From assembly GCA_028288765.1 (NCBI GenBank), contig JAQGHQ010000510.1, positions 1 through 32,725 of the forward strand: a stretch of DNA of 32,725 nt, in the 5' to 3' direction. A program made the translations under genes and the position numbers. The DNA comes from Gemmataceae bacterium. GTDB taxonomy: Bacteria; Planctomycetota; Planctomycetia; Gemmatales; Gemmataceae. This document shows, piece by piece, positions 6,705 through 26,358 of this stretch; positions within the stretch are counted from its first letter, which is position 1; the number at the start of each line of letters is the position of its first letter. The notes beneath the pieces were generated by a model. It was not told the DNA's origin and made no database searches. It worked only from the letters and a program-made list of their open reading frames with translations.

Positions 6705-8549
6705 GTGCCGTCCGACCCGGTGGAGCAGACCAAACAGATCAAAACCGCCAGCGACATCGTCGCGGTCGTAGGCGGCTACCTCGCGCTCGCGCCGGCCGGC
6801 CGGACGTTCAAGGCCCTCTGTCCGTTCCACAACGACTCCCGTCCCTCCCTCGACGTCGACCCCCGCCTCCAGCGGTACCGGTGCTGGTCCTGTCAGGCCC
6901 ACGGCGACGTCTTCGCCTTCGTCCAGCACATGGAGAAAGTGGGCTTCAAGGAGGCCCGACAAATACTCGCCGTCCGGGCCGGAATCAAGCTGGATGAGAC
7001 CCAGTCGCCGCAGGACCAGGCCCGCGTCCGGCTGCTCGGGGTGATGCGGTGGGCGCAGGAGAAGTACCAGGACTGCCTCCTGAACGACCCGGCCGGCGCG
7101 GCGGCGGTCGCGTACATCGCGGGCCGGAAGCTCTCCGGGAAGACGGTCCGCGACTTCGGCCTCGGGTTCGCCCCGCTCGGCGGCGAGTGGCTTACCCGGC
7201 TGGCCTTCGCCGAACGGGTCCCGGTCGAGGTCCTGGGCGAGGTCGGTCTGCTGCTCGAGCGGCACGGGGGCCGCGGCCACTTCGACCGGTTCCAGGACCG
7301 GGTGATGTTCCCGATCCGGGACGTGCAGGGGCGGCCGGTCGGATTCGGCGGCCGGATCATGCCGGAATCTCCCCTACTACCCCGCGCCCCGAAGTATTAC
7401 AATTCTGCTGAAACTCCGCTGTTCTCGAAGAGCGAGCTCCTTTACGGCCTCGACCTCGCCCGGCACGCCGGGGCTGCGGTCGGTTATCTCGCGGTCGTCG
7501 AGGGGTATACAGATGTGATGATGGCCCACCAGTGCGGGGTGCCGCAGGTAGTGGCCACCATGGGAACCGCCCTGAACGCCCGGCACGTCGCCCAGCTCCG
7601 CCGGTACGCCCCCAAGGTGGTGCTGGTGTACGACGCGGACGCGGGCGGGATGACGGGGGTCGACCGGGCCCTGGAGCTGTTCGTCGGCCAGGACGTGGAA
7701 CTCGCGGTCGCGACTCTTCCCGACGGGCTCGACCCGTGCGACCTCCTCGTCCGGCCTGGGGGCCTTGAGACGTTCAAAGCGATCCTGACCTCCGCCGTCG
7801 ACGCCCTGGATTTTAAACTGAATCGCCTCCTGGACCGCGACCCGAACCCGTCCGTCGAGGGCACCCGCCGGATCATCGACGAGGTCCTCGGGGTCATGGC
7901 CGCCGCCCCGGTCGTCCCGAACCGGGCGGGCCAGGTCAAGCAGGAGCTGATCGTTACCCGGCTCGCCCACCGGCTCGGGCTGCGGCAGGAGACGGTGTGG
8001 GCCCGGTTCGGGGAACTGAAGCGGGAGCGGAAGCAGAAGGATTTTCAATCCGCCGCGAAGACCGGGCCGCTGGTCCAGGCCTCCGCGGCGAGGGAGACGA
8101 GGCCGGCCCCCGACCAGCCGGCGGGGAAGACCGGGCCGGTGGTGGCCGCCGAGATGCAGTTGCTCGAACTCCTGCTCGCCCACCCCGGGTTCGTCCCCCA
8201 GGCGGCCGCCGTGATGTCGGCCGACGACCTGACCCACACCGGGCTGCGGCGGATGCTGGTCGAACTGTACTCGCTCCAGGCGGCCGGGCTGACCCCGGAC
8301 GTGGACACCCTCCGGGACCGGCTCGCCGACCGCCCGGACCTGTTCGAGGCGGCCGAGAAGCGGCTGTTCGTCGGCCAGCACATGCAAGAACCGGAGCAGA
8401 ATCTGGCCCGGATCCTCGGCTGGTTCTCGAAGCACAAGAAAGAGGTCGGGGAGCGGGCCCTGACCGCCCGCCTCAAGGGCGGGGCCCTCGACCCGGACCA
8501 GGCCGCGGAGCTCCTTCGCAAGCTCCAGGACCGGCGGGCGGGGGGATGA
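6705..8549 (+). CDS. dnaG: DNA primase DnaG
   Basis: This 614-residue protein synthesises RNA primers at the replication fork. The N-terminal CHC2 zinc-binding domain has ligands C39, H42, C60 and C63 (CPFH and CWSC). The catalytic RNAP-like core follows, with the TOPRIM acidic residues in VVEGYTD (E266) and VYDADAGG (D310, D312). The DGLDPCDLL segment near 340-348 is also typical. The C-terminal part (about 455-614) should bind the replicative helicase DnaB. The start is taken as GTG at 6705, three bases after an AGGTGA sequence; GTG at 6720 is an alternative. The gene precedes rpoD, the conserved macromolecular-synthesis arrangement, but no rpsU lies upstream. Confidence 0.95.
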   Translation: MPSDPVEQTKQIKTASDIVAVVGGYLALAPAGRTFKALCPFHNDSRPSLDVDPRLQRYRCWSCQAHGDVFAFVQHMEKVGFKEARQILAVRAGIKLDETQSPQDQARVRLLGVMRWAQEKYQDCLLNDPAGAAAVAYIAGRKLSGKTVRDFGLGFAPLGGEWLTRLAFAERVPVEVLGEVGLLLERHGGRGHFDRFQDRVMFPIRDVQGRPVGFGGRIMPESPLLPRAPKYYNSAETPLFSKSELLYGLDLARHAGAAVGYLAVVEGYTDVMMAHQCGVPQVVATMGTALNARHVAQLRRYAPKVVLVYDADAGGMTGVDRALELFVGQDVELAVATLPDGLDPCDLLVRPGGLETFKAILTSAVDALDFKLNRLLDRDPNPSVEGTRRIIDEVLGVMAAAPVVPNRAGQVKQELIVTRLAHRLGLRQETVWARFGELKRERKQKDFQSAAKTGPLVQASAARETRPAPDQPAGKTGPVVAAEMQLLELLLAHPGFVPQAAAVMSADDLTHTGLRRMLVELYSLQAAGLTPDVDTLRDRLADRPDLFEAAEKRLFVGQHMQEPEQNLARILGWFSKHKKEVGERALTARLKGGALDPDQAAELLRKLQDRRAGG

Positions 8550-8678
8550 CCGGACGCCGCGGGTCGGGGGCGCGGGCCCCCGACTCCACCATTACAGCAC
8601 GGGTTTGACACCACGAGTCTTCGATCCACCCGCCCCGGGGTTTCGGCCCCGGCGGTTGGCCTTGTGGGAGGGGTTCGG

Positions 8679-10349
8679 ATGGACTGGAAGAACGAAGAGA
8701 CGCTCCTGGCCTTGATCAAACGGGGCAAGGAAACGGGCTCCCTCACCTACGACGAGGTCAACGCCGCGCTGCCCGAGGGGACGGCGGGCGTCCCCGAGTC
8801 CGACCGGCTGGAGAGCGTCCTCGAAGTCCTCGAGGCGAACGGGATCAGCATCATCGACGAGTCGGACACCGAGGAGCGGGAGGAGGCCCCGGTCGTCCTC
8901 GCCGACGAGATCCTCGCCGACCCGGAAGCGAACCCGTTCGGGGACTCCGACGGGGACGGCCGGCACATCGACGACCCGGTCCGGATGTACCTCACCCAGA
9001 TGGGCGAGATCCCGCTCCTCAGCCGGGACAAGGAGATCGCCCTCGCCCGCAAGATCGAGGTCACCCGCCGCCGGTTCCGGCGGAAGGTGCTGGAGTGCGA
9101 CTACGCCCTCCGGCAGGTGGTCGAGACCCTCAAGCGGGTCCACACCGGTGACCTCCCGTTCGACCGGACCGTGAAGGTGTCGCAGACCGAGAACCTGGAG
9201 AAGGACAAGATCCTCCAGCGGATGCCGCACAACCTGAAGACCCTCGAACCGCTGATGGAGTTCAACGTCGAGGACTTCCAGCGGCTGACCGACGAGCGGA
9301 CCCAGCCGGCCGACCAGGAGGAGCTCCGGGAGCGGCTCCGGCTCCGGCGGCGGAAGACGGTCACCCTGGTCGAGGAGCTGTCGATCCGGACCCAGAAGGT
9401 CCAGCCGCTGATGAAGAAGCTGGAGCAGATCAGCCACCGGATGGACGAGCTGGAGGGCGAGATCGAGACCCTCCGGGGCGACCGGGCGGCGAAGGAGGAG
9501 CGGGCCAACCTGGAGAAGGAGCTCCAGGACCTGATGCTCATCACCCTCGAGGAGCCGGCCAGCCTGCGGAAGCGGGTGTCGATCATGCGGCAGCGGTTCG
9601 CCGAGTACGAGCAGGCGAAGCGGGAGCTCTCCGGCGGGAACCTCCGGCTGGTCGTGAGCATCGCGAAGAAGTACCGCAACCGGGGGCTCAGCTTCCTCGA
9701 CCTGATCCAGGAAGGGAACACCGGGCTGATGCGGGCGGTGGACAAGTACGAGCACCGCCGCGGGTTCAAGTTCAGCACCTACGCGACGTGGTGGATCCGG
9801 CAGGCGATCACCCGGGCGATCGCGGACCAGGCCCGGACGATCCGCATTCCGGTCCACATGATCGAGACGATGTCGAAGCTCCGGAACGTCTCGAAGAAGC
9901 TCCTGCAGGACATGGGCCGGGAGCCGACGATCGAGGAAACCGCCAAGGCCGCCGGGTACACGCTGGAGGAGACCAAGCGGGTCCTGAAGATCAGCCGCCA
10001 GCCGATCAGCCTGGACCGCCCGGTCGGCGAGAGCGAGGACAGCTACTTCGGGGACTTCATCGAGGACAACTCGGTCGAGTCGCCGGTGAACGCCGCGACG
10101 AACGAGATGCTCAAGGACAAGATCGAGGGCGTGCTGAAGACCCTGACCTACCGCGAGCGGGAGATCATCAAGCTCCGGTACGGGCTGGGCGACGGGTACA
10201 CGTACACCCTGGAAGAGGTCGGCCGGATCTTCAAGGTGACCCGGGAGCGGGTCCGGCAGATCGAGGCGAAGGCGGTCCGCAAGCTCCAGCACCCGGTCCG
10301 CAGCCGCCAGCTCGAAGGGTTCCTCGACGGCATCCGCCGGGGCGTCTAA
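8679..10349 (+). CDS. rpoD: Primary sigma factor RpoD (sigma-70/SigA)
   Basis: This 556-residue protein is the housekeeping sigma factor. An acidic region 1.1-like N-terminus is followed by region 1.2 ([30 protein letters not shown]). A charged, partly coiled-coil non-conserved insert spans roughly residues 130-310. Regions 2.1-2.4 follow, including [27 protein letters not shown] and [17 protein letters not shown]. Region 3 then leads to region 4 with the helix-turn-helix [28 protein letters not shown]. The start is ATG at 8679 because GGGAGGGG lies at 8667-8674; a GTG 15 bp upstream would contain that site. The gene starts 129 bp after dnaG and is probably co-transcribed with it. Confidence 0.96.
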
Positions 10350-15206: not shown

Positions 15207-16323
15207 ATGAACCCGGATCTCCGTCGGCGGACCGACGACCTGTGCGCCCGGCTGGCCCAGTTGCGGGACTCTCTTTGACGTCCCTGGTAAGACCGTGGTC
15301 CGAGACCAGCTGGAGGCGAAACAGGCCGACCCGGGGTTCTGGAACAACCAGGAGCAGGCCCGGGCGGTGATCCAGCAGCTGAAAGTGGCGAACGCGCTGC
15401 TCAAACCCTACGAGGAGCTGACCCGGACCGCCGCCGACCTGACGGCGATGGCCGAACTCGCCGACGAGGACGCCGCGTTCGAGGTGGAGCTGGAGCCGGC
15501 GCTGGCCAAGGCCGAGGGACAGTACGAGGGGTTCGAACTCCAGGCGATGATGAGCGGCAAGCAGGACGCCGCCAACGCCATCGTGTCGATCAAGCCCGGG
15601 GCCGGCGGGACGGACGCCTGCGACTTCGCGGAAATCCTCTACCGGATGTACACCCGGTGGGCCCAGCAGCACGACTTCGCCGTCGAGGAGCAGGACCTCG
15701 AACCGAACCTGGAGGCCGGCATCCAGAGCGTCACCTTCCGGGTGGTCGGGCCGTACGCCTACGGCTACCTCCAGAGCGAGATCGGGGTTCACCGGCTGGT
15801 CCGGATCAGCCCGTTCGGCTCGGGCGACACCCGGCAGACGTCGTTCGCGGCCGTGGACGTGGTCCCCGAGCTTGACGACACGATCGAGATCGAGATCAAG
15901 GACGACGACTACATCAAGCAGACGTTCTCGGCCGGCGGGCCGGGCGGCCAGCACCAGAACAAGACGCAGTCCGGGGTGCGCCTGATCCACAAGTCCGGGG
16001 TGCGGGCCGAGAGCCGGACCGAACGCAGCCAGCACAAGAATCACGACAACTGCATCAAGATGCTCAAGGCCCGGCTGTACGCGATCGAGGAGCAGAAGCG
16101 GCTTGGCGACTTGTCGCAGCGGTACGACGCCAAGGGCGAAATCGCGTTCGGCAGCCAGATCCGCAGCTACGTCCTCCAGCCGTACACGCTCGTCCGCGAC
16201 GAGCGGGACGGGGTCGACGTGAAGACGCCCGCGATCATGCAGGTCCTCGACGGCAACCTCGACGAGTTCATGCACGCCTACCTGCGGTACAAGACGGCCA
16301 GGCAGAACAAGGTGAAGAAATAA
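15207..16323 (+). CDS. prfB: Peptide chain release factor 2, with programmed +1 frameshift
   Basis: RF2 recognises UGA and UAA stop codons and releases the peptide. The gene is in two frames. ATG at 15207 (GGAAGGGA at 15191-15198) opens 23 codons ending CTT TGA at 15273-15278. A +1 slip on CTTT continues at GAC 15277 for 348 more codons, giving about 371 residues. The site CTTTGAC is the canonical autoregulatory site: low RF2 leaves UGA unread and favours the shift. The upstream stimulatory Shine-Dalgarno-like element is weak (only GCGGGA). RF2 signatures present are the SPF tripeptide (VRISPFGSGDTRQTSF) and the GGQ motif (SAGGPGGQHQNKTQSGVRL). Confidence 0.96.
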
Positions 16324-23213: not shown

Positions 23214-24617
23214 ATGCGGCGGGGCGGGGCCGGACTGATCGCGGTCGTGCTGGCACTCGCCGGGTGCAAGGGTACGGACCCGAAGCCGGGCGATAAGAAA
23301 GACCCGGCCGGGCTCGCCGCCCGGACCAAGGGACAGGGCCCGGCGTGGCTCGACGAGTCGCTGGCGAAGTTGCCCGGGGCCGGGACCGGGGTGCCCAAGG
23401 CCGACTCGTGGGTCCACCCGAGCGACCCGAACTTCAACGTCGCCGCCGAGACCAGAGGACTGCTCGCCGGGAAGGTACTGGACCCGGAGGGGCGGGGGGC
23501 GAAGGGCGTGTTCATCCGGATCGAACCGGCCGACGCCTCGCCGAAGGACCGGGACGGGGCGCCGAAGGGGATCGTTACCGACTCGGCCGGGTATTTCATG
23601 GCCAAGGGCCTGCCGCCCGGCCGGGTGTATAACCTGATCGCCGAGGCAAAGATCGACGGTAAACCGCTCTCCGGGACCGTCCAGACCCGTCCGCCGCAGC
23701 CGAATATCACCATCGCCCTGCGGGACGATCTCGCCCTACCCCCGGCCGGTCCGGGTGGTCCGGGCGGGGGGACCGGGGACGCCCTTCCCCCGGGTCTGCC
23801 TTCGGCGGGGGCCGGGCCGGCTACTTTCCCGCCCCCGCCCGGCGACTTGATCCCGCCGATGGGTCTGCCGCGGCCCGTCCCCACCCGGCCGTCCGACGGG
23901 AACTGGGGGCCGGACCCGGGCGCGCAGACGAGCCCCATCCCGGCGACGATTCCGTCGGCGTCCCCGCCCGCACCGACCAGCCCGATTCCGCCGCCGGTCA
24001 CGACCCCGGCGGTCCGCCCGGAAAGTACTGCCGGCGGCTCGCCCCCGCCGTGGAAACCGCCGGCGGCGAGCGTGCCCGGCCCGCCGGTCCCGAGCCTCCC
24101 TCTCCCGCCGGCGGGATCGCCACTCCCGTCTGGGGTCCCACCGGCCGGGAAGCAGTCGTCGCGGCCCGTGGTGCGGCCGGGGGCGAACTTCACCCTGGTC
24201 GACTCCCTGGAGCGGCCGTGGGACTTCGCGACGAGCCGGTCCGGGTCGCTGGTACTGCTCGACTTCATGACCACGACGTGCGTTCCGTGCCGGCAGGTGA
24301 TCCCGATCCTGGTCGATCTCCAGGGTCGGTACGCGGCCGACGGGCTCCAGCTGATCGGGGTCGTGTGCGACGACGCCCCTTTGCGCGACCGGACGGCGCT
24401 CGCCGCGAAGTACCAGCAGGACCACAACCTGAACTACGAGCTGTACACCGAGTCCGGCCCGGCGCCGGGCGCGGTGCAGGAGCGGTTCCAGGTCCCGAGT
24501 TACCCGCTGGCGGTGCTGCTAAACGGCGAGGGCACCGTGCTGTGGCGCGGCCACCCGGGCCAACCGGGCAACAAGGCCGCGCTCGAATCCGCGATCCGGC
24601 GGTACCTCGCGAAGTGA
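23214..24617 (+). CDS. Thioredoxin-fold (TlpA-like) lipoprotein with Pro-rich linker
   Basis: This 467-residue exported lipoprotein begins MRRGGAGLIAVVLALAGCKG, a lipoprotein signal with lipobox ALAGC. Residues about 80-175 look like a carboxypeptidase-regulatory/CNA-B-like beta domain (GLLAGKVLDPEGRGAKGVFIRIEP, TDSAGYFMAKGLPPG). A low-complexity Pro/Gly/Ser linker spans about 176-320. The C-terminal domain is TlpA/AhpC-type thioredoxin, with the CVPC active site at 356-359, the preceding LVLLDFMTTT strand and the cis-Pro region VPSYPLAVLLNGEG. It probably acts as an extracytoplasmic thiol-disulfide oxidoreductase. The ATG at 23214 is selected over the upstream in-frame GTG/TTG codons because the lipobox follows directly. 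Confidence 0.84.
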   Translation: MRRGGAGLIAVVLALAGCKGTDPKPGDKKDPAGLAARTKGQGPAWLDESLAKLPGAGTGVPKADSWVHPSDPNFNVAAETRGLLAGKVLDPEGRGAKGVFIRIEPADASPKDRDGAPKGIVTDSAGYFMAKGLPPGRVYNLIAEAKIDGKPLSGTVQTRPPQPNITIALRDDLALPPAGPGGPGGGTGDALPPGLPSAGAGPATFPPPPGDLIPPMGLPRPVPTRPSDGNWGPDPGAQTSPIPATIPSASPPAPTSPIPPPVTTPAVRPESTAGGSPPPWKPPAASVPGPPVPSLPLPPAGSPLPSGVPPAGKQSSRPVVRPGANFTLVDSLERPWDFATSRSGSLVLLDFMTTTCVPCRQVIPILVDLQGRYAADGLQLIGVVCDDAPLRDRTALAAKYQQDHNLNYELYTESGPAPGAVQERFQVPSYPLAVLLNGEGTVLWRGHPGQPGNKAALESAIRRYLAK

Positions 24618-24722
24618 TCCGCGGGCCAAAGCTCGACGACCGCCGCCGGTGTCGCAACAATCGTCGGATCCTCTGAGTTTCGCGATACCGGTCTCGAATT
24701 CCACTTCTGCCCGGATTTCTCC

Positions 24723-24753
24723 TTGTTCACCCCCGCCCGGCGTGTTAGATAAT
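24723..24753 (+). promoter_or_regulatory. Candidate promoter of the attenuator leader
   Basis: TTGTTC at 24723-24728 and GATAAT at 24748-24753 are separated by 19 bp, longer than ideal. TTAGAT at 24745-24750 with a 16-bp spacer is an alternative -10. Transcription would start near 24760, about 36 bases before the leader peptide ATG. Confidence 0.4.
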
Positions 24754-24795
24754 TACGTCCGCCGTGTCGGCGGTTCCGGTGTGAGGCGTTTCCTG

Positions 24796-24897
24796 ATGAC
24801 GATGGCGTTCGAGGTCCGGTTCGCACAAACCGCCCGTGTGGCGGTTGCGGTCGGTGCTATCGCCGTCGTCGCGGCTGCGGCCGCAGCCCCCACCTGA
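24796..24897 (+). CDS. Ala/Val-rich attenuator leader peptide
   Basis: This 33-codon open frame starts at ATG 24796, nine bases after GAGG (24783-24786). It encodes 13 Ala, 6 Val and 1 Ile. The Val and Ala codons are concentrated from codon 15 onward, ending with six consecutive Ala codons (24871-24888), then Pro, Thr and TGA. Composition and length recall the enterobacterial ilvB/ilvG leader peptides. The stop codon falls in the first bases of an antiterminator arm, so the ribosome position would decide which hairpin forms. The peptide itself probably has no other role. A frame extension upstream to 24649 lacks support. Confidence 0.65.
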   Translation: MTMAFEVRFAQTARVAVAVGAIAVVAAAAAAPT

Positions 24898-24968
24898 CTC
24901 CGGACCCGACCAGCGTTCATCGAACCACCTGTCGGCCCCGGAGTCACCCTCCGGGGCTGTGTTGTTTT
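24895..24968 (+). terminator. Attenuator: mutually exclusive antiterminator and terminator
   Basis: Terminator: GCCCCGGAG (24935-24943) pairs with CTCCGGGGC (24949-24957) across TCACC, followed by TGTGTTGTTTT (24958-24968). Antiterminator: TGACTCCGG (24895-24903) pairs perfectly with CCGGAGTCA (24938-24946), extended after a 2x2 internal loop by CCGAC (24906-24910) with GTCGG (24931-24935). The two structures share 24935-24943 and exclude each other. GGTCCGG (24813-24819) could pair with CCGGACC (24900-24906) as a 1:2 hairpin. A ribosome reaching the TGA would cover segment 2 and permit termination; stalling on Val/Ala codons would allow read-through. Confidence 0.7.
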
Positions 24969-25044
24969 CCGGGCTGCCTGCCCCTCACCCCTACCCTGCT
25001 CCCCACCGGGAACGGGGAGGAAGAAGGTCGAAAGGGTTCCTCCG

Positions 25045-26358
25045 ATGCCGTCGGCTCCCCTCCCGTTGTCGGGCAGGTCGCTCCGCACGACCGACTCCCC
25101 GATCTCGTACTTCATCCAGAAGGCGTTCGAAACCCCGGGGCTGATCTCGTTCGCCGCCGGCCTGGTGGACGAGCCCTCGCTCCCGGCCGCCGAGGTCGGG
25201 GCCGCCGTCGCCGCGTTGATGGCCGACCCCGCGACCGCCCGGGCCGCCCTCCAGTACGGCACCACCCGCGGGTACACCCCGCTGCGGGAGAAGGTGCTGG
25301 ACCTCGTCTGCCGGGCGGACGGCGTCGCGCCCGGCGACGTCGGCCTGTCGGTCGACGACGTGATCCTCACCACCGGGTCCCAACAGCTCCTTTATCTGCT
25401 CGGTGAGGCCCTGTTCGACCCGGGCGACATCGTGATCACCGAGGCCCCGTCGTACTTCGTCTACCACAGCCTGCTGGTGAGCCAGGGGGCCCGGGTCCTG
25501 ACCGTCCCGATGGACGACGGCGGAATGGACCTGGACGCCCTCGAGGCGCTCCTCGATCAGCTCGCCCGGACCGGCGAGATCGCCCGGGTGAAGCTCATCT
25601 ACACCGTGGACTATTACCAGAACCCGACCGGGCTTACGCTCGCCGAGGCCCGCCGCCCCCAGCTGGTCGAACTCGCCCGCCGGCACAGTACCCGTCACCG
25701 CATCCTGATCCTCGAAGACGCCGCGTACCGCGAGCTCCGGTACTCCGGCGACGACATCACGAGCATCAAGCGGTTCGACGAGGGGAACGAGTTCGTGGTG
25801 TACACGAGTACGTTCTCGAAACCGTGCGCGCCGGGCCTTCGGACCGGGTATACCCTGATGCCGCGGGATCTCGTGGGCCCGGTACTGAACCTGAAGGGAA
25901 ACCACGACTTCGGCTCGGCTGCCCTCGGCCAGCACGTCCTCGATCAGCTCATGAGTACCGGCACGTACCACCGACACGCCGAGAAGGTGCGGGGGGTGTA
26001 CCGAGAGAAGTGTGGGCTGACCCTGAGGGCGCTGGAACAAGAGTTCGCCGACTTCCCGGGGGTCAAGTGGACGGTCCCGGCGGGCGGGCTGTACGTCTGG
26101 CTGACATTCCCCCCGCACGTCGACACCGGGCCGGGCGGGTCGCTCGTTCCGGCCGCCCTGGCGGCCGGGGTGCTGTACGTCCCCGGGGAGTTCGGGCACG
26201 TCCCGGACGAGACCGGGTGGGTGCCGCGGAACGAGGTCCGGATCTGCTTCGCGGTGGCGGACCCCGCCCAGATCCCGGAGGGCATCCGCCGGCTGCGGCA
26301 GGCGTGTCGCGGGTTGGAGCGGTCAACGGCCCGGGGCAAGATGACGGCCGGAGTATGA
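25045..26358 (+). CDS. PLP-dependent class I/II aminotransferase
   Basis: This 437-residue enzyme has fold-type I aminotransferase features: FAAGLVDEPSLP at the start, QYGTTRGYTPLRE (residues 70-82), TTGSQQLLYLL near 109-119, YYQNPTG (190-196), LEDAAYRELRY with Asp225, and TSTFSKPCAPGLRTGY with the PLP Schiff-base Lys at about 259. This pattern is closest to the LysN/ARO8/kynurenine-alpha-aminoadipate and MocR-like subgroup without a DNA-binding domain. The amino-acid substrate is not fixed by sequence. The preceding attenuator with Ala and Val codons suggests alanine or branched-chain amino-acid metabolism. Start ATG 25045 is preceded by GAAAGGG. No further gene follows in the transcript. 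Confidence 0.88.
   Translation: MPSAPLPLSGRSLRTTDSPISYFIQKAFETPGLISFAAGLVDEPSLPAAEVGAAVAALMADPATARAALQYGTTRGYTPLREKVLDLVCRADGVAPGDVGLSVDDVILTTGSQQLLYLLGEALFDPGDIVITEAPSYFVYHSLLVSQGARVLTVPMDDGGMDLDALEALLDQLARTGEIARVKLIYTVDYYQNPTGLTLAEARRPQLVELARRHSTRHRILILEDAAYRELRYSGDDITSIKRFDEGNEFVVYTSTFSKPCAPGLRTGYTLMPRDLVGPVLNLKGNHDFGSAALGQHVLDQLMSTGTYHRHAEKVRGVYREKCGLTLRALEQEFADFPGVKWTVPAGGLYVWLTFPPHVDTGPGGSLVPAALAAGVLYVPGEFGHVPDETGWVPRNEVRICFAVADPAQIPEGIRRLRQACRGLERSTARGKMTAGV

Follow-up and report, generated by a model that had tools for sequence, protein, structure and literature searches.

The window analysed here, a 32,725-nt stretch of DNA from a Gemmataceae bacterium, carries a gene for a class I/II aminotransferase whose upstream region has the layout of a putative ribosome-mediated transcription attenuator. 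Elsewhere the window contains, at 6705-10349, a DNA primase gene with DnaG domains and, after it, a gene for a sigma-70 factor, which is the gene order of macromolecular synthesis operons, as well as a peptide chain release factor gene (15295-16323; PCRF and RF-1 domains). The features of the aminotransferase locus are as follows:

24726-24753, forward strand: promoter-like site TTCACC-16-GATAAT (9 of 12 matches)
24796-24897, forward strand: leader peptide ORF, 33 sense codons including 13 Ala and 6 Val, TGA stop
24874-24891, forward strand: six consecutive Ala codons, the putative main control codons
24895-24910, forward strand: segment 2, starting with the leader stop codon and covarying with segment 3
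24931-24946, forward strand: segment 3 (GTCGG CC CCGGAGTCA), common to the antiterminator and the terminator
24933-24959, forward strand: predicted intrinsic terminator hairpin 3:4, 11 pairs (9 GC) with the tail TGTTGTTTTC
24960-24969, forward strand: T-rich tract TGTTGTTTTC
25045-26358, forward strand: class I/II aminotransferase gene, 437 aa, PF00155

The leader ORF encodes the peptide MTMAFEVRFAQTARVAVAVGAIAVVAAAAAAPT, and on re-reading, the leader given in the preliminary description (its length, its Ala and Val content, the run of six Ala and a TGA lying inside segment 2) proved exact to the base. The TGA (24895-24897) forms the opening of segment 2. Direct reading of the window likewise bears out the proposed 9+5 bp antiterminator: TGACTCCGG (24895-24903) can pair with CCGGAGTCA (24938-24946) over 9 bp, and CCGAC (24906-24910) with GTCGG (24931-24935) over a further 5 bp. 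The 9-bp terminator that had been claimed for segments 3 and 4 is contained in the longer hairpin listed above, which is separated from the aminotransferase gene by 85 nt. The promoter-like site is the sole one on either strand in the region 24600-25100 (mean of 0.0 in 50 shuffles) and would place the transcript start near 24760. The region 24760-24970 folds better than each of 200 shuffled sequences (z -2.79).

Matches to the aminotransferase at E 1e-85 or better are present in 56 of the 95 genomes of the family and in 58 of the 102 of the order. For all 58 orthologues we took up to 600 nt of upstream DNA, less at contig ends (e.g. in G083 and G003), and in 47 found an intrinsic terminator no more than 250 nt away from the gene match. 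The pipeline then required an ATG-initiated ORF 15-60 codons long, with its stop positioned at a stretch that can base-pair, at a 2:3 score of at least 14, with the terminator's 5' arm. The complete layout (leader, stop at segment 2, 2:3 and 3:4) was recovered in 39 of the 58 orthologues, i.e. in 39 of the 47 with a terminator, by a procedure that is blind to amino acids and whose thresholds were chosen after several leaders had been inspected. The preliminary description had staked the attenuator on a leader ORF and compensatory changes in both helices being conserved in close relatives; these 39 orthologues retain the leader, the position of its stop and both helices, with covariation, which supports the proposed interpretation. 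This pipeline superseded a looser first search for segment 2 (40 ORFs), which in G003 and certain other genomes had picked up spurious partners.

The 19 orthologues that failed comprise 11 without a terminator by our rule and 8 lost at later steps. Among them, four (G012, G088, G093 and G094) contain, as judged by eye, a frame rich in Ala that begins with a codon other than ATG. In G106 all three segments are present and the stop is displaced, and the leader of G017 is poorer in Ala codons and fits weakly. In three further genomes, G068 (L061), G079 (L064) and G080 (L057), the GGCCCCGG hairpin is kept before the aminotransferase gene, while the Ala leader and segment 2 have apparently been lost; these cases may show decay of the attenuator into a plain terminator. 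Both orthologues from the sister family of the same order (G037 and G040) have no terminator and lack the layout, and the same rule found a terminator in none of 12 orthologues from elsewhere in the class (12 of 13 strong matches, G054 being left out). We also built a quick tree from 39 aminotransferases, 26 of them with the leader and 13 without; support was weak for 12 of its 36 inner branches. The distribution of the leader on this tree requires 8 changes, of which well-supported branches force 5.

The layout is rare in control DNA. Among 1520 overlapping tiles taken from the window and from the relatives L032-L050, mostly coding sequence, 77 had a terminator and 4 of these 77 the complete arrangement. 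Two of these four represent the real element of G007 (in L046), and the other two share one peptide with 3 Ala. A search of the 95 family genomes for CTCCGG-N-CCCCGGAG-N-CTCCGGGG gave 20 occurrences, spread over 19 genomes, and by coordinates 18 of these occurrences precede this aminotransferase gene; the reversed control pattern has no occurrence in the 95 genomes. Two occurrences of the three-segment pattern lie away from the aminotransferase gene (G000:C511:8418-8487 and G091:C73:9967-10034), perhaps by chance.

Evidence for the two helices comes from a MAFFT alignment of the 39 regions (38 distinct), which was not fitted to structure and whose columns are named from the row of the window; its cells count sequences and not evolutionary events. 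For the antiterminator, 78.9% of 342 cells are paired and 6 of 9 pairs are doubly changed (27 cells), a result matched in 0 of 500 shuffles. The corresponding values for the terminator are 98.7% of 380 cells and 7 of 10 pairs (42 cells), again with 0 of 500 shuffles. Sliding the registers by 1-3 columns always reduced both the number of paired cells and the covariation score. The segment 3 columns are common to the two helices, and three-way changes are seen, e.g. CTCCGG/CCGGAG/CTCCGG, CCTGGGG/CCCCAGG/CCTGGGG and CTCCGA/TCGGAG/CTCCGAG. The pair at columns 9/61 requires at least 8 changes of state on the aminotransferase tree, unpaired states included. The outer pairs of 2:3 are weak (columns 14/56 are unpaired in 14 of 38 sequences and columns 15/55 in 24 of 38). 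Scoring each segment 2 against the segment 3 of the same genome beat 20000 of 20000 permutations, which is supportive and not independent evidence, since the acceptance threshold bounds these scores from below. The mean minimum free energy over the 39 genomes is -21.1 kcal/mol for the stretch from the stop to segment 3 (not forced into 2:3) and -23.3 kcal/mol for the terminator.

A third pairing fared differently. GGTCCGG (24813-24819), proposed as a partner of segment 2, can indeed pair with CCGGACC in the window, but this is not conserved in the relatives: over the 39 genomes the summed own pairing of a trp-type pause or protector helix 1:2 was reached by 450 of 5000 permutations. We therefore do not count 1:2 pairing, which is no better than chance, among the conserved parts; in our view such a helix characterises the trp type and is not a requirement of the attenuation mechanism.

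The leaders resemble one another in composition. In the last 15 codons of the 39 leaders, Ala accounts for 51.1%, Val for 14.2%, Ile for 8.0% and Leu for 5.0%, while in the two shifted frames Ala makes up 3.1% and 3.4%. At least six Ala occur among these 15 codons in 37 of the 39 leaders (the others, G006 and G036, have 2 and 4). At every codon from 2 to 20 before the stop the most frequent residue is Ala, with a share of 0.49-0.77 at each of codons 3-14, and the spacing from stop to terminator is 29-44 nt (median 34). Ahead of the leader start, a loosely defined Shine-Dalgarno-like motif is present in 22 of 39 cases, and the best promoter score is moderately above that of block shuffles (mean 7.05 vs 5.62). 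Between close leaders, synonymous codon differences do not outnumber those that change the amino acid, which means that the composition of the leader is conserved and not its sequence; these codon changes speak slightly against a peptide conserved in sequence. The in-frame Ala bias speaks for translation of the leader.

We propose that this region is a ribosome-mediated transcription attenuator of the Gemmataceae, which would sense mainly charged tRNA-Ala and perhaps Val and Ile charging too, and we place the probability of this reading, based on sequence comparison, at about 0.85. It is supported by the conserved leader ORF, the in-frame enrichment of Ala, the fixed place of the stop and the covariation of two mutually exclusive helices. 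RNA polymerase would start near 24760, and a ribosome would translate the leader. When charged tRNA-Ala is scarce, the ribosome would stall in the Ala-rich stretch, about 3-14 codons ahead of the stop. Judged by the general size of a ribosome footprint, this should leave most of segment 2 free, as the segment begins at the stop or within a few bases of it; segment 2 would then pair with segment 3 and the aminotransferase gene would be transcribed. A ribosome that reaches the stop would instead hide segment 2, so that 3:4 could form and transcription would end in the T tract. Starvation would thus be expected to induce the aminotransferase.

The same attenuator might respond to the joint pool of Ala, Val and Ile (or to Val and Ile), with an enzyme that transfers amino groups back and forth between alanine and the keto acids of the branched-chain series. 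An activity of this kind is known from AvtA (valine-pyruvate transaminase). In the 17 genomes having both leader and gene sequence, Val is enriched 2.2-fold (16.1% of the last 15 leader codons vs 7.3% of the aminotransferase genes) and Ile 1.8-fold (7.5 vs 4.1%), while Leu is depleted to 0.4-fold (5.1 vs 12.7%), and Ala and Val replace each other in the leader peptides of G065 and G067. However, Ala alone is enriched 5-fold (48.2 vs 9.3%) and predominates position by position, and IlvE is found in 84 of the 95 family genomes, that of the window included. We consider this alternative unlikely; it overlaps with the preferred explanation, so that the odds of the two are not exclusive. In the suggestion that a shortage of charged tRNA-Val or tRNA-Ala would switch the gene on, Ala is the dominant control residue; with Val and Ile only about twofold enriched over the downstream genes in these 17 genomes, the suggestion is better put as Ala first, with Val and Ile possibly contributing. 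In a further reading, which we also consider unlikely, one mixed control stretch would read the joint charge of Ala and Val (and Ile), and, there being no 1:2 helix, an untranslated leader would leave the gene on, the reverse of trp superattenuation. In the same 17 genomes, GCT and GCA make up 34% of the Ala codons in the leaders vs 14% in the aminotransferase genes (Fisher p 3.6e-7, with sequences that are not independent), and GTG and GCG are rarer in the leaders than in the downstream genes.

An attenuator that responds to translation stress in general, as whiB7 does, stalling upon any inhibition of the ribosome with the Ala richness being incidental, would have the same list of parts, and whiB7/wblC uORFs are reported to answer both antibiotics and amino acid starvation (available portion of PMC11550727). 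It is nevertheless improbable here: the 39 leader peptides are alike in their Ala composition, with no fixed motif evident by inspection, and the regulated gene is a metabolic aminotransferase, an argument that is not independent because all upstream regions were selected by that gene. We regard as still less probable an ordinary terminator following the gene of a small hydrophobic micropeptide, with complementarity arising by chance. The leader frame does stay open upstream as far as 24649, and peptides rich in Ala and Val are common in GC-rich genomes, but the covariation of 2:3, the stop on segment 2, the control tiles, the out-of-frame counts and the depletion of Leu all oppose it. A T-box leader, which also senses uncharged tRNA, by binding it, or a riboswitch is very improbable, given that no Rfam family reached its gathering score in the whole window and that the conserved parts found are a reading frame and segments 2, 3 and 4.

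The nearest solved sequences of the regulated enzyme (the best 60 of 84) include a "multiple substrate aminotransferase", a 2-aminoadipate transaminase (LysN of Thermus) and an alanine glyoxylate transaminase, and none of the 25 NCBIfam families listed (of 62) was above its cut-off. Alanine dehydrogenase (E 1e-60) is present in 77 of the 95 family genomes and, like IlvE at the same threshold, in the genome of the window, so the aminotransferase need not be the main source of alanine; inspection of the 95 genomes revealed no clean pattern of exchange between either enzyme and the aminotransferase. The solved relatives, the NCBIfam result and the wide occurrence of the other two enzymes leave the leader as the best available hint that this aminotransferase may supply alanine.

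The proposed attenuator shares with the classical ones (trp, his, leu, ilv, thr and phe) a leader ORF with control codons, a stop near segment 2, mutually exclusive 2:3 and 3:4 helices and a T tract. Unlike them, it has Ala control codons and no conserved 1:2 helix, precedes one aminotransferase gene and not a pathway operon, and belongs to the Planctomycetota. To our knowledge, alanine is absent from the usual list of amino acids under classical attenuation. The accessible portions of the attenuation literature name Trp, His, Thr, Phe, Leu, Ile/Val and Cys. In the trp and his layout, as far as it is described in the available part of PMC1183508, a leader that is not translated folds into 1:2 plus 3:4, and transcription stops. 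In contrast, with nothing conserved that replaces 1:2, an untranslated leader of the type proposed here would be expected to allow read-through, leaving the gene on.

A related system is actinomycete whiB7/wblC, in which intrinsic termination is also under the control of a uORF. According to the available portions of three sources (PMC13236596, PMC11550727 and the preprint PMC13370626), whiB7, in mycobacteria, coordinates the response to alanine starvation and activates the alanine biosynthesis gene aspC. Attenuator sensing of alanine shortage via a uORF therefore has a precedent, which acts through a transcription factor. However, whiB7 itself is the transcription factor gene and answers antibiotics too, whereas here the aminotransferase gene itself would lie behind the attenuator and the leader, unlike that of whiB7/wblC, consists largely of Ala codons. 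Leaders with control codons are also known from comparative work, namely uORFC-8-2 before cysS in Rhodobacterales and the leaders of cys operons in Actinobacteria (PMC8632094, PMC1262725). As far as the available parts of these papers indicate, they differ from the present case in having cysteine codons and in preceding other genes in other phyla, and the actinobacterial cys leaders have no evident terminator. Within the same phylum, short leader genes of Planctomycetes have been described through a statistic on the distance to the main start codon, attributed to reinitiation (PMC4833913); these are also leader ORFs before genes, and no attenuator is named in the accessible part of that paper. 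Among the titles and abstract beginnings of the open-licence matches listed, we found neither an Ala-coded attenuator directly before an aminotransferase gene nor any attenuator in planctomycetes.

The logic of the proposed switch is thus that of the known trp, his and ilv attenuators, and what is new, as far as the literature searched extends, is an Ala-coded leader placed directly on an aminotransferase gene. If this reading is true, it would add one amino acid and one phylum to ribosome-mediated attenuation. The Ala-rich leader also provides a functional prediction, alanine supply, for the aminotransferase, and its retention, along with covarying helices, in a large part of a planctomycete family would suggest that switches of this kind do not need a 1:2 helix.
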